5,922 bases of DNA from an uncultured Pseudomonadales bacterium (GTDB taxonomy: Bacteria > Pseudomonadota > Gammaproteobacteria > Pseudomonadales > IMCC2047): the NCBI GenBank assembly GCA_947258895.1, contig CAMYKE010000100.1, forward strand, positions 1-5,922, given 5' to 3'. Below the pieces are notes generated by a model that was not told the origin of the DNA, did no database searches, and saw nothing but the letters and a program-made list of their open reading frames with translations. Shown here piece by piece: positions 1,529-5,922 of the stretch; positions within the stretch are counted from its first letter, which is position 1; each line of letters opens with the position of its first letter. A program made the position numbers and the translations under genes.

Positions 1529-2770
1529 ATGCTTAAGTTACAGTATCGCGGTCAACCTGACCGGTACGCCAAGTTGGTACCACCCACGGTAACAATTGGT
1601 CGAGATCCCAAGAATCAACTCGTGGTCGATGATCCCACCGTGTCAGACTTCCACGCAGAGATCAGCCTGAAGGACCAACAGATTTTTGTCATGGATCTAC
1701 TGAGTAGTTCCGGGACCTTCGTGAACGACAAGCTGATCAAAGGCCCTCAGCGGCTGCAAGCCTGGGACGTCATTCGGGTGGGTACTGTGGACCTGGAGAT
1801 CAACGATCCAAACCAGCACAGACCCGGTGAGTGGGCGTTACTGGCTGATTCAGAGCTGCTTGGTGGGCAACAATTCGTATTACTTCCAAAAACCACCGTG
1901 GGTCGCGAACGCGGCTGCGATTTCGAAATTAACTCCCAGCACCTGTCGCGACGCCATGCGGAAATCCATATCGAAGATGAGCGGTTACGGATCGTGGACC
2001 TGGAATCGCGCAATGGAACCTTTATCAATGGAGAAAGAATTACCGAAGCCTACGCCAGACCGGGAGACGAGATACGCTTCGACCAGCAAAAGTTCATCAT
2101 CGCCGGACCAGTAACTCAAGAACCTGAAAAATCTGCGACGGAGGACGAAAACACGCAGTTGCGTACCGAGATCGAGGTACAGGATGAAACCCTGGTGCAG
2201 ATGATTGACGGCGATGCCACCCAGATACTGTATGAAGAGGAGACGCAAATTCTCCCCTCGATGGCCTCACAGCGGACCTTTCTGGTTGAGCTGGATTCCG
2301 CATCCGGGGATGAATTGCGCTATTCGCTGGACCGGCCCGGATACAGCATCGGTCGTAGTGGCGAAAATGATCTCGTACTGGCAGACGCCAGTGTGTCCAA
2401 GCAGCACGCAGTGCTTATCCAAACCGATGGCCAATGGAGCGTCGAAGATCGGGAATCTCGCAATGGTGTGTTTGTCAACGGCGAGCAGGTAACCCGGGCA
2501 TCACTCAGTGATGGCGACCTGTTACGGCTGGGTAAGCACGAACTGCGGTTCGAGCGGGAACAGACGGCAACGCAGCTCGAAGTCGAGAATACCGACCGCA
2601 CGATGGTCTTCACCGCCCCCCAGATGAATCCTTCACCCTCGAGCCCGGGGCTCAGCGCAAAACGCAAAGACCGGACAAGGCTCCCCACCTGGTTTCTTGG
2701 CAGCCTGCTATTTGCGCTTTGCCTTGCGGCTGCCCTGTTCATTTTTCTTCGGCGCGCGGGCACGCTCTAG
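1529..2770 (+). CDS. Triple FHA-domain protein with C-terminal membrane anchor
   Basis: The 413-residue protein has three forkhead-associated domains, which bind phosphothreonine peptides. FHA1 (about 2-92) shows GR at 24-25, SxxH at 39-42 and SSGT at 60-63, where the usual asparagine is Ser61. FHA2 (about 105-192) is canonical: GR 125-126, SRRH 140-143, SRNGT 160-164. FHA3 (about 250-342) has GR 275-276, SKQH 290-293 and SRNGV 310-314, with Val replacing Thr. The linker 195-245 is acidic and holds repeated Thr-Gln motifs (ENTQL, DATQI, EETQI); another, ATQL, lies near 347-350. These could be kinase targets. After a Ser/Pro/Lys-rich stretch, one hydrophobic helix (about 386-407) is followed by RRAGTL, so the protein is probably tail-anchored with all FHA domains in the cytoplasm. 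There is no enzymatic domain, so it is likely an adaptor or scaffold responding to a Ser/Thr kinase not seen here. The start ATG is the best available, but the ribosome binding site is weak. Confidence 0.93.
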   Translation: MLKLQYRGQPDRYAKLVPPTVTIGRDPKNQLVVDDPTVSDFHAEISLKDQQIFVMDLLSSSGTFVNDKLIKGPQRLQAWDVIRVGTVDLEINDPNQHRPGEWALLADSELLGGQQFVLLPKTTVGRERGCDFEINSQHLSRRHAEIHIEDERLRIVDLESRNGTFINGERITEAYARPGDEIRFDQQKFIIAGPVTQEPEKSATEDENTQLRTEIEVQDETLVQMIDGDATQILYEEETQILPSMASQRTFLVELDSASGDELRYSLDRPGYSIGRSGENDLVLADASVSKQHAVLIQTDGQWSVEDRESRNGVFVNGEQVTRASLSDGDLLRLGKHELRFEREQTATQLEVENTDRTMVFTAPQMNPSPSSPGLSAKRKDRTRLPTWFLGSLLFALCLAAALFIFLRRAGTL

Positions 2771-2813
2771 TGCGTACGAAAGTCGATTGCTACCATCCTA
2801 CGGTCCCGGGAAT

Positions 2814-2840
2814 TTGCACTATCCCACTGGCCGCCATAAT
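2814..2840 (+). promoter_or_regulatory. Weak sigma-70-type promoter candidate for the peptide gene
   Basis: TTGCAC (2814-2819) and CATAAT (2835-2840) lie 15 bases apart, shorter than the preferred 17. They lie 45 bases upstream of the peptide start, in the 114-base gap after the triple-FHA gene. No terminator is visible after that gene, so read-through from it is an alternative source of transcript. A 9-base direct repeat, TGCTACCAT, occurs at 2788-2796 and 2842-2850 around this site. Confidence 0.3.
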
Positions 2841-2871
2841 CTGCTACCATTTACTTAGATTTCCAACCTAT

Positions 2872-2878
2872 GGAGGAA
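2872..2878 (+). promoter_or_regulatory. Strong ribosome binding site that fixes the peptide start
   Basis: GGAGGAA is a near-perfect Shine-Dalgarno sequence, six bases before the ATG at 2885. An in-frame ATG at 2870 overlaps this site and would add five residues (MEEYQ), so it is very unlikely to be the real start. It is by far the strongest ribosome binding site in the window, consistent with a highly translated small product. Confidence 0.85.
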
Positions 2879-2884
2879 TATCAA

Positions 2885-3067
2885 ATGGCGAAGATTGTAA
2901 TCAATGACCTGGCAGAGAGCGTCGATCTCGACCAACAAGCATTAGCCAGCATCTACGGGGGTGCCAGCGCGAGCGTGCAAAAACCTGATCCGATTGCAAC
3001 CCTGATCGGCAAGGGCAAACTGAATCTGCTTGAACTGGCGCGCGCCAAGCGGCTGCTGCGCAGATAA
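2885..3067 (+). CDS. Double-glycine leader peptide precursor, putative secreted cationic peptide
   Basis: This 60-residue precursor has two parts. Residues 1-26 form an acidic leader, MAKIVINDL then ESVDLDQQALASIYGG, ending in Gly25-Gly26. This fits the double-glycine leaders that C39-peptidase ABC exporters cleave, as for class II microcins and bacteriocins, with hydrophobic residues spaced before the GG. The predicted core (27-60, 34 residues) has no cysteine. It carries eight Lys/Arg against one Asp and one Glu, for a net charge of about +6. A Gly/Lys hinge (IGKGK, 41-45) leads into an amphipathic C-terminal segment ending in RLLRR, which resembles membrane-active peptides. No modification enzyme is visible and the lack of Cys argues against lanthionine bridges. 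The gene sits between the triple-FHA gene and a NodT-type outer-membrane channel gene, supporting export. Antimicrobial, signalling or other roles cannot be told apart from sequence, and I saw no separate immunity gene. Confidence 0.85.
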   Translation: MAKIVINDLAESVDLDQQALASIYGGASASVQKPDPIATLIGKGKLNLLELARAKRLLRR

Positions 3068-3115
3068 ACTCGCCGCCAACACGATCCTGTTCCGAACGTA
3101 ATCCCTGCAATTGAC

Positions 3116-3152
3116 GCGCCCCCTGATTCGGGGGCGCTGGAGCCGTCTTTTT
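3116..3152 (+). terminator. Probable intrinsic terminator after the peptide gene
   Basis: GCGCCCCC (3116-3123) pairs perfectly with GGGGGCGC (3130-3137) around a six-base loop, making a very stable 8-bp stem 48 bases after the peptide stop codon. A run of five T follows at 3148-3152. The gap of ten bases between stem and T run is longer than usual, so termination may be partial, or the hairpin may mainly protect the 3' end of the short peptide mRNA. Confidence 0.5.
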
Positions 3153-3236
3153 GTTGGGCTTCGCACAACTACATCTCCCCATTGGTGGGTCAGCACCGTA
3201 ACCCGCTGCGTGAATCGCGTCTGCACAGTCGATATC

Positions 3237-3261
3237 TGTTTACATTTTTTTATAATAAACA
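3237..3261 (+). promoter_or_regulatory. AT-rich promoter-like element with flanking inverted repeat
   Basis: A perfect TATAAT (3251-3256) follows a run of seven T. The six-base inverted repeat TGTTTA (3237-3242) and TAAACA (3256-3261) brackets it and could be an operator. No good -35 hexamer lies 16-18 bases upstream (GTCGAT at 17), so this would be a weak or activator-dependent promoter. If used, it would give the NodT-type gene a leader of about 420 bases. Confidence 0.3.
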
Positions 3262-3686
3262 ACATCTTAGCTATATTCATATGCCCGAGCTCTATTTCTG
3301 GCCTATATCTTGCTGTATCGCTAATGAGTACAGACGCAGCGGGACTGCGACGATTGCATTCTGCAGGGTTGATTTCATCTAAACTCCACGTTCAAGTTAG
3401 CGAGGCGAATGTCTATGGATTTTCAAGAGCTATATCCTGCCGTGAAGCGGTATTTACAAACGGGAAAACACCTTGGCCCAGGTAGCATTTGGATGCACCC
3501 GTTCGCAACCATGCGCGATAGACGGCTCTGCAAGGATGAGGCTCGAGAAGCGCCCGCTGCGGGAATATTGACTTCACCAAAGCGTTCCAGTACTTTTCAC
3601 ACGAAATCAACAGTGCCAACCAACTATGCCCCCGCCCTCCTCGTGTATGCGGAAAATCACAACCACATATCTCGAGGTAAGCAGCT

Positions 3687-5144
3687 ATGCTCGCGCTGAT
3701 TGAATTGCCACAACAAAGAAATAGCCCCGCAAATCCCGGCATGACACTTCCAGCACACGCGTGTTTCCAGGCATTGTCGACGCTGTTGTTCGCAATGATA
3801 CTCCTGATGAGCGGCGGCTGCGGCAACCTCTCGGGCCCCGACTATCAAGCGCCCACGGCGCCCGGCAAAACTACCTGGTCGAGCGATAACCTGGTACTCG
3901 ATGAAGTGATTCGGCCTGACTGGTGGAAATCGTTTCAAAATCCGGTGCTGGATCGACTGATTACGAAGGCCATAGAGAACAATGCCGATCTGAGCGTCCT
4001 CGCCGCGCGCGTCGATCTGGCAGAAGCATCGATTAGCCAGGCAAACGCCACCCGCCTGCCTACACTCGATGCCGCAATCGGGAGCACCGTACAGGGCTTC
4101 AAGGGCGCTGACGCGTCGAATCAGCAAAGCTATTCCACCGCCATCGGTTGGGAACTGGATATTTGGGGCAAACTCAAGAAAGACGTAAAAGCACAAAAAG
4201 CGGCCGTACAGGCTAGCGAGGCCGAATGGCGGGCGGGCTATCTGGAACTGGTGTCCAACGTTGCAGACGCCTATTTCACGTTAAGCCAGTATGACGAACA
4301 GATACAGTCGCAGGAGGCAGCGCTCGAGAACGGCGAACGAGTTCTGGTTATCTACCAGTCGCTGTATAAGGAGGGCATGATCCCCCAGACGCAGCTCGTG
4401 CAACAACAGGCCGAAACGAACCAATTACAAAAGGATTTGATTGAACTGCAACGACTGCGACGACTGGCAGAAAATTCCCTGGCAACGTTAACTGGCACAC
4501 CTGCTGGCGATCTGTATCTGCCCGCCCAGAAAATGCGTGACTCGGTGCGGCTGATCGATGTTCCTGCGGGGCTGCCCTCTGACCTGCTCAAACGCAGGCC
4601 GGATATCGTTGCCGCAGAATATCGAGTACTGCAAGCTCACCACCTCCTGGGCCAGGCACAGTTAGCCAAGCTGCCTTCGATCCGGCTGACCTCCAATTTT
4701 GGCAGCACCAGCAGTGCGCTTTCCGATCTCCTGAACGGTTGGAATTTTGGTGTAACGCCCATCTCGACGATACCCATCTTCGATCCCAATGTCCGCGCCC
4801 GTGCAAGAGTGAGCAAGGCGCAAGCACAGCTCTCCGAGGAGGAATACCGCCGCGCGGTCATCAGAGGTTTCGAGGATGTCGAAAATGCCCTGGTTAATCT
4901 GTCCAGCCGCAAACTGCAGCATGCAGAACTCGAATCACGGCACGCCAAGCTGAATATGGTTTCGCAGCAGATCAATCTGCAATTGCGCGAGGGCATGGTT
5001 TCACAACTGGACGTATTCGAGTCCGAGCGCTCGCTATTGGCGGCGCAGCTCGCGCTCATCGCCAATCACCGACAGATTCTTTCCGATACAGTGGTATTAT
5101 TCAAGGCACTTGGTGGGGGATGGCCGACCGTTACAGTTGAATAA
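3687..5144 (+). CDS. NodT-family efflux/secretion outer-membrane lipoprotein (TolC-like)
   Basis: The 485-residue product is a trimeric outer-membrane channel subunit that works with an inner-membrane pump and a periplasmic adaptor. A signal sequence covers residues 1-44; if the alternative ATG at 3741 were used it would be a more usual length. SGGC with Cys45 as the probable lipidated residue is a loose lipobox. It is followed by the family hallmark GPDYQAP at 50-56. Two outer-membrane efflux repeats follow, at about 80-265 and 295-480. Typical signatures are GWELDIWGKL (154-163), AYFTL (195-199), KRRPDI (302-307) and LPSI (329-332, often FPSI in relatives). Length is normal for the family and there is no frameshift. 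GAGGT at 3674-3678, eight bases before the ATG, supports the 3687 start. No adaptor or pump gene lies beside it in the window, which is unusual for RND operons, and the nearby GG-leader peptide suggests it may serve peptide export instead. The substrate is not determined by the sequence. Confidence 0.95.
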   Translation: MLALIELPQQRNSPANPGMTLPAHACFQALSTLLFAMILLMSGGCGNLSGPDYQAPTAPGKTTWSSDNLVLDEVIRPDWWKSFQNPVLDRLITKAIENNADLSVLAARVDLAEASISQANATRLPTLDAAIGSTVQGFKGADASNQQSYSTAIGWELDIWGKLKKDVKAQKAAVQASEAEWRAGYLELVSNVADAYFTLSQYDEQIQSQEAALENGERVLVIYQSLYKEGMIPQTQLVQQQAETNQLQKDLIELQRLRRLAENSLATLTGTPAGDLYLPAQKMRDSVRLIDVPAGLPSDLLKRRPDIVAAEYRVLQAHHLLGQAQLAKLPSIRLTSNFGSTSSALSDLLNGWNFGVTPISTIPIFDPNVRARARVSKAQAQLSEEEYRRAVIRGFEDVENALVNLSSRKLQHAELESRHAKLNMVSQQINLQLREGMVSQLDVFESERSLLAAQLALIANHRQILSDTVVLFKALGGGWPTVTVE

Positions 5145-5227: not shown

Positions 5228-5922
5228 ATGCTCATCACGCTAAAACCCATTGCTCCGGGTCAACACGCTGAAATTCGCATCGAAGAGGCGCTATTCCCAC
5301 TGGGTCGAAGCGAGCCCTGCTTCGCCGACTACGACTCCAGGTCACTCGCTTTTCTTTCGCGGCGCCACGCGCGAATTTTCAGCGAGAACGGCAAAATCTA
5401 TGTCGCCGACCTGGGCAGTCGCAATGGCACGCAACTCAACAATCGCAAGGTAGAATTCAAACCCGAACGCCTGCGATCAGGCGACGAACTGAGCCTCGCC
5501 AACACCCTGCGGTTTGAGGTATGCATCAGCGATGCCCTCGAAGATAGCAGCGCCGATCAAAGCCCACCCCAGCCACTGACACTTCTCCCTGCAAGCCCTG
5601 CACTCGGCGACCGGGCGCTCACGATTGCAGACTATCCCTTTCTGGTAGGAAATGCAGAAGACAATCCAGTTCATACGGGCGCCCAAAACGGGGAACCGAG
5701 AAAATTCCTGTCGCGCCGTCACGCGCACTTTTTTATCAGCGGCGATGACGTTTTCCTGGAGGATCTCGGCAGCACCAACGGCACCTTCGTCAATAACGAC
5801 CGGTTGACGGAGGATCCGGTGCGTGTAGCCAGCGGAGACCTGATTCAGTTCGGGAGCCCCCATTGCCGATTCGAGGCGAGACTCGAGGGTGCCGAGGGTG
5901 AGCTTGCGAGCGCGGATGAGCA
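5228..5922 (+). CDS. Tandem FHA-domain protein, N-terminal part (runs off the window)
   Basis: An open frame of 231 codons starts at the ATG at 5228, directly after an in-frame TAG (5225-5227), and is still open at the window edge. FHA1 (about 2-100) is canonical: GR at 26-27, SRRH at 44-47 and SRNGT at 64-68. FHA2 (about 117-217) keeps SRRH at 162-165 and STNGT at 182-186 but has Gly-Asn (141-142) where the phosphate-contacting Arg of the GR motif is expected, so its phosphothreonine binding may be reduced or altered. A Ser/Pro-rich linker (about 102-117) joins them. The end, after residue 217, is acidic and low in complexity, suggesting a linker to a further domain. Two N-terminal FHA domains occur in ABC exporters of the Rv1747 type, in kinases and in adaptors; which applies here depends on sequence beyond the window. 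The ribosome binding site is weak. Confidence 0.9.
   Translation, partial: MLITLKPIAPGQHAEIRIEEALFPLGRSEPCFADYDSRSLAFLSRRHARIFSENGKIYVADLGSRNGTQLNNRKVEFKPERLRSGDELSLANTLRFEVCISDALEDSSADQSPPQPLTLLPASPALGDRALTIADYPFLVGNAEDNPVHTGAQNGEPRKFLSRRHAHFFISGDDVFLEDLGSTNGTFVNNDRLTEDPVRVASGDLIQFGSPHCRFEARLEGAEGELASADE

Follow-up and report, generated by a model that had tools for sequence, protein, structure and literature searches.

A 60-Residue Double-Glycine Leader Peptide Gene and Its Probable Link to a C39 Exporter Cluster with Phospho-Signaling and Sigma54 Parts

Results

The open reading frame at 2885..3067 (+ strand) of the window, i.e., of the whole stretch of 5,922 nucleotides that was analyzed, is a real gene with the coordinates and length originally described. 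It encodes a 60-residue peptide with a double-glycine (GG) leader. The leader family, the synteny of an export cluster and the co-occurrence of leader and cluster led to the assignment of this peptide as a GG precursor belonging to a peptide export system that has phospho-signaling and sigma54 parts. On sequence grounds, the C39 exporter of the cluster is quite probably its cognate exporter; since the window itself holds no exporter gene, cognacy was derived from synteny and from relatives. A hypothetical 60-residue gene is thus tied to an export system of Burkholderiaceae and scattered other Gammaproteobacteria that joins eukaryote-like phosphorylation parts, sigma54 control and export of GG peptides.

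The Precursor Gene

Translation of 2885-3067 gave the leader MAKIVINDLAESVDLDQQALASIYGG followed by the core ASASVQKPDPIATLIGKGKLNLLELARAKRLLRR. The leader (26 residues; 2885..2962, + strand) is acidic with a net charge of -3 and ends in GG. The core (34 residues; 2963..3064, + strand) carries eight Lys/Arg, two acidic residues and no Cys, and thus a net charge of +6; its mature form is predicted to start at Ala27. A strong Shine-Dalgarno sequence, GGAGGAA (2872..2878, + strand), was read 6 nt upstream of the ATG at 2885. Re-reading of 2885-3067 and 2872-2878 confirmed the original prediction with respect to coordinates, length, sequence, ribosome binding site and the composition of leader and core. 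A longer frame of 65 residues from the in-frame ATG at 2870 was rejected, because the Shine-Dalgarno sequence would fall inside it and because the relatives P0002, P0003 and P0004 all begin at MAK. These three relatives, obtained by protein search, are each 60 residues long and 72-98% identical to the window precursor: P0002 (98%) stems from a Halioglobus sp. MAG and is listed by NCBI as 'hypothetical protein', P0003 shares 73% and P0004 72% identity.

A weak sigma70-like promoter match (9/12; 2813..2840, + strand) lies between the upstream FHA gene and the peptide gene. Since 2600-3800 contained three such matches and shuffled sequence contained 1.1 on average (sd 1.3), this match was not taken as evidence by itself. 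No intrinsic terminator was found in 2600-3800, and an RNA element was discarded since there was no Rfam match with an E value of 1 or better. In Pfam, no family scored above its cut-off with the window peptide (GTP-bdg_N, 13.1 bits vs. 25.4), and no NCBIfam model matched it.

A Conserved Leader Precedes Variable Cores

A leader profile was built from 11 Burkholderia and Caballeronia leaders, with the window and its close relatives left out. This profile, whose leaders share conserved columns, scored 37.7 bits with the window ORF, as compared to 4.2 bits for the next-best frame of the window and 10.3 bits for the best of 200 mononucleotide-shuffled windows. From 2162 candidates, a family profile search retrieved 158 proteins with E values of 1 or better, and the best 120 of these 158 were combined with the window's own for family statistics. 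The leader and GG were kept in 121/121 of this set, which was selected partly by the leader. In the same set (best 120 of 158 plus the window), the leader was net negative in 120/121, the core was net positive in 120/121 (mean +5.2) and neutral in one, and Cys occurred in the core of 3/121.

Diversity was determined for 45 family representatives sharing less than 75% identity. Mean pairwise identity was 0.72 for leaders, a figure inflated because the profile used to gather the family covers the leader, 0.40 for cores and 0.34 for shuffled cores; entropy was 0.73 bits for leaders vs. 2.72 bits for cores. Thus, leaders were kept and cores varied at family scale, as anticipated, and a short GG-ending leader was common to different cores, as in double-glycine precursors. 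Among close relatives, the anticipated diversifying core was seen only in part. By eye, P0004 matched the window in 22/26 leader and 20/34 core positions, i.e., with the core less conserved, whereas P0003 matched in 18/26 and 26/34 positions, with the core as conserved as the leader.

The core had been described as ending in an amphipathic segment and as possibly membrane-active. For AMPHIPATHICITY, the maximal helical moment of the window core was 0.39, a value reached by 57% of shuffled cores. None of the 45 representatives exceeded core shuffles at 0.05, proline was present in 45/45 representative cores, and the AlphaFold2 model of the window peptide yielded a pLDDT of 59.5 and a pTM of 0.23. 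Since the helical moment is ordinary, proline occurs throughout and model scores are low, a membrane-active helix is not supported, and this part of the original prediction was abandoned.

The Export Cluster in the Window and in Related Genomes

Directly upstream of the peptide gene, the window encodes a protein with three FHA domains (1529..2770, + strand; FHA 2.1e-59, three stretches) and a C-terminal hydrophobic segment read from its translation. As its relatives were only single-domain, scattered matches in 5/6 genomes, it was assigned to the system by position. Downstream follow an outer-membrane channel of NodT type that belongs to the export cluster (3687..5144, + strand; TIGR01845, 287.6 bits, cut-off 210) and a dual-FHA protein of the cluster, which is cut by the window end (5228..5922, + strand). 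The window contains no kinase gene, and its - strand encodes, at 111-1277, a region of pentapeptide repeats in fusion with an ion-channel domain (Ion_trans_2).

The 15 ORFs of at least 30 amino acids overlapping 2772-3689 were compared with the fetched loci. The precursor ORF matched in 36 loci, NodT in 35 and an antisense shadow of NodT in 9 (best 2.7e-6); the remaining ORFs were unmatched there. The gap of about 620 bases (3068-3686) that separates the peptide gene from NodT contains no ORF with a match in these loci.

In plasmids, tblastn found two places, both aligning to residues 1-27 only. Gene callers had been supposed to miss the family easily: no feature is annotated at these two places, in records with only 2 and 3 features, but P0002 is listed by NCBI, so that the supposition held only partly. 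At the Burkholderia stagnalis place (L002), NodT and dual-FHA genes are arranged as in the window; the cut NodT of this locus, compared over 245 residues, shares 53% identity with the window NodT, and the dual-FHA proteins share 43%. Identity to the other Burkholderiaceae cluster NodTs was 45-50%. The B. stagnalis cluster continues with HlyD, a PpiC-type isomerase, an ABC exporter and a sigma54 activator, along with a divergent PP2C. The cluster exporter combines two cNMP stretches with Peptidase_C39 and ABC domains, the activator of L002 carries a Sigma54_activat domain, and the family nearest to the cluster PpiC is TIGR04500 (86.6 bits, cut-off 180).

In a scan of genome contigs, NodT, FHA, HlyD, PpiC and C39ABC occurred together in 14/29 loci, all from Burkholderia, Caballeronia or Trinickia. 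The NodT-HlyD-PpiC-C39 cluster was absent from the other 15/29 scanned loci, which were left out of the cluster count. The cluster is often accompanied by PP2C and a Ser/Thr kinase; PP2C was present in 9/14 cluster stretches, several of which end early. Two further genomes, G199 and G166, share the cluster gene order and encode NodTs 54-55% identical to that of the window. Named exporter relatives come from Halioglobus (P0135, 79%) and Parahaliea mediterranea (P0197, 76%). Extension to the family or order to which G199 and G166 belong contributed no more than 3 and 5 genomes and no new finding. At L121 (G236:C272), a cNMP-C39 exporter of greater distance was observed together with PP2C, sigma54 activator, PpiC, HlyD and FHA relatives, and an adjoining ORF resembles an ATP-grasp enzyme by eye; judging from this locus, other types of peptide may use the same chassis.

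Leader and Cluster Occur in the Same Genomes

Co-occurrence was analyzed in 369 genomes drawn from the class. In 3/369 genomes (G001, G166 and G199), which were counted as cluster genomes, the NodT match was accompanied by an exporter of the C39 type that was at least 74% identical to a query taken from G199; the searches scored only the best few candidates per genome and could miss weak matches. G369 was not counted, since its NodT passed the threshold (44%) on a contig without the rest of the cluster. Leader matches at E 0.001 or better were obtained in four genomes, G001, G166, G199 and G208, i.e., in 3/3 cluster genomes vs. 1/366 others (hypergeometric p 4.8e-7). Without the center genome G001, the leader was matched in 2/2 vs. 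1/366 (p 4.4e-5). Seven further genomes had exporters at 35-40% identity and no leader match. Thus, the predicted link between the GG-leader precursor and a C39 exporter cluster was supported by leader family, cluster synteny and co-occurrence in relatives.

G208 possesses leader peptides, and neither NodT nor the exporter was matched in it at the applied thresholds; no cluster gene was found in the first 12,000 of the 43,593 bases of its leader contig. One of its leader-like peptides (L119:1132-1338) has a proline-rich core. In G166, the cluster is present and no class A peptide, i.e., none of the short, basic class to which the window peptide belongs, was found among three leader matches at E 0.5 or better.

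Companion Peptides and Sigma54-Like Sites

In cluster genomes, the same leader fronts several unrelated core types. Class A peptides are short and basic; the other classes are N/Q-rich (13-29% N+Q) with charges of -2 to 0. Relatives thus combine a single basic peptide with several that are N/Q-rich, and no N/Q-rich companion was found in the window, where the next-best leader score was 4.2 bits. In the mapped stretches, for which part of the leader matches was translated, each genome or record of Burkholderia, Caballeronia or Trinickia showed one class A gene, as did G199. Nine loci (L001, L002, L003, L075, L076, L077, L078, L096 and L097) contain both a class A gene and the Ser/Thr kinase gene. 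In all nine, the two are about 300-1350 bases apart, with transcription of the class A gene directed away from the kinase gene. In L001, L075, L076, L077 and L078, three peptide genes follow one another and the class A gene is the last of them; in G199, it comes after PP2C.

The sigma54 -24/-12 consensus was used for scoring promoter matches in stretches of at most 300 bases preceding 42 genes chosen among those fetched. In counts that are not independent, since the scored loci are related, a match of at least 13/16 preceded 22/27 N/Q-rich genes, at -49 to -89, and 1/11 class A genes (L003, at -257). Against shuffles of the same stretch, p was <0.05 for 18/27 N/Q-rich genes and 0.06 for four; the five N/Q-rich genes without a match are second genes of peptide runs. 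The background rate of matches of at least 13 was 2.5e-4 per position. The 16 stretches scanned contained 16 sites of at least 15/16, of which 11 lie before N/Q-rich genes, 4 before LRAT-like genes and 1 before a class A gene (L003). Upstream of the window peptide gene, the best match was 11/16 (p 0.64), with none at 13/16. The best site before any gene of the window was 13/16, upstream of the triple-FHA gene (p 0.07), and is not claimed; one 14/16 match lies at 3121 on the - strand.

Two types of gene were observed beside class A genes. An LRAT-domain gene adjoins the class A gene in L002 (L002:12536-13069), where the domain was tested with Pfam, and has counterparts by ORF similarity in L075, L096 and L097. 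In four loci, a near-perfect sigma54-like site precedes the LRAT-like gene, which is a possible further member of the regulon. In addition, a small ORF of about 80-100 amino acids lies beside class A at L096:869-1111, L097:2768-3010, L002:12250-12552, L076:2995-3240 and L077:3367-3654. Of the eight loci compared, five others gave matches to it, with the frame uncertain in GC-rich DNA, and no counterpart was found in the window.

Discussion

According to the proposed mechanism, the C39-peptidase ABC exporter, which would be encoded just past the window end, recognizes the leader and cleaves the precursor after GG. Together with HlyD and NodT, it would then release the 34-residue basic core from the cell. 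Kinase, phosphatase, FHA proteins and the cNMP domains of the exporter probably gate secretion, as their domains suggest, and the sigma54 activator of the cluster probably turns on the N/Q-rich companion substrates. For the mature core, a role as an extracellular accessory, i.e., a tether or cap, of an N/Q-rich and possibly fibrous matrix is favored, if only tentatively. The model of an N/Q-rich peptide was very poor (pLDDT of 45.2), so the idea of a fiber was drawn from composition. It is somewhat more doubtful that these genes represent a distinct Gram-negative system, in which a type I exporter gated by kinase, PP2C, FHA and cNMP parts serves a sigma54-switched, N/Q-rich extracellular assembly of multiple peptides, with the basic, single-copy peptide of the window acting as cap, tether or secretion signal.

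The position of class A genes bears on another role, that of a signal by which the exported core informs the membrane Ser/Thr kinase and its FHA readers of secretion or cell density. In 9/9 mapped loci of Burkholderia, Caballeronia and Trinickia with both genes, the location of class A near the kinase gene and its transcription away from it would fit such a self-read signal, as would the location after PP2C in G199 and after the triple-FHA gene in the window. However, the window has no kinase gene, and in 5/9 loci the class A gene ends a run of three peptide genes instead of standing alone with the kinase; this role is considered rather unlikely. An antibacterial function like that of class II microcins, with the basic core disrupting or entering competitor cells, appears less likely still. 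The GG leader, the C39 exporter of related clusters and the net-basic core agree with it, and the small ORF beside class A could be an immunity gene, although overlapping antisense frames match as well in this GC-rich DNA. Yet no ORF beside the window peptide matched in the fetched loci, mapped genomes have a single class A gene, near regulatory genes, companion peptides are N/Q-rich and near neutral, and the cores show no amphipathic excess and have proline in 45/45 representatives.

A cytosolic basic protein with an incidental GG is highly improbable. Its basic C-terminus could bind nucleic acid, but the leader and GG persisted through the whole partly leader-selected set of 121 (best 120 of 158 plus the window), and one leader fronts unrelated cores and co-occurs with the exporter. 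If export of the precursor by the cluster holds true, the system would offer a genetically tractable example of type I export that is phospho-gated and acts on several peptide substrates, and its peptides would be candidates for a new matrix or signaling peptide family.

Class II microcins combine a GG leader, a C39 exporter, a HlyD-type adaptor and an outer-membrane channel, and all of these have counterparts in the present system, those of exporter and adaptor in the related clusters. It differs from them by the addition of phospho-signaling, cNMP and sigma54 parts and of N/Q-rich companion substrates, and no candidate immunity gene was found in the window. NHLP bacteriocin export (TIGR03796, TIGR03794) shares the C39-ABC and HlyD architecture. 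Assignment to an NHLP precursor and export system was rejected because NCBIfam cut-offs were not reached: the L002 exporter scored 531 vs. 853 and the adaptor 68 vs. 156, and the window peptide had no NCBIfam match. Likewise, GG rSAM-modified RiPPs (TIGR04149) were rejected, since the window peptide was unmatched and two N/Q-rich relatives scored 17.7 and 20.7 bits vs. 25. In the parts consulted of a graspetide survey (PMC8939145), FHA, PP2C and cNMP never occur and a TIGR04500-type isomerase is included. Among the titles and abstract openings listed from the openly available part of the literature, none describes the NodT-FHA-HlyD-PpiC-C39/ABC cluster.

Among the papers compared, as far as their accessible text goes, the nearest characterized precedent appears to be EbfG1-4/PteB of Synechococcus elongatus, where secretion of small GG-motif proteins requires a C39 peptidase transporter (PMC4997328, PMC9981879). 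According to the same excerpts, EbfG1-3 form amyloid and EbfG4 does not; here, a possible likeness to a matrix or amyloid was drawn from the composition of the N/Q-rich peptides. Unlike the present cluster, EbfG/PteB comes without kinase, FHA, PP2C and sigma54 parts in the portions of text consulted, and, as far as these portions go, both systems appear to pair several small GG-motif proteins with a C39 transporter.
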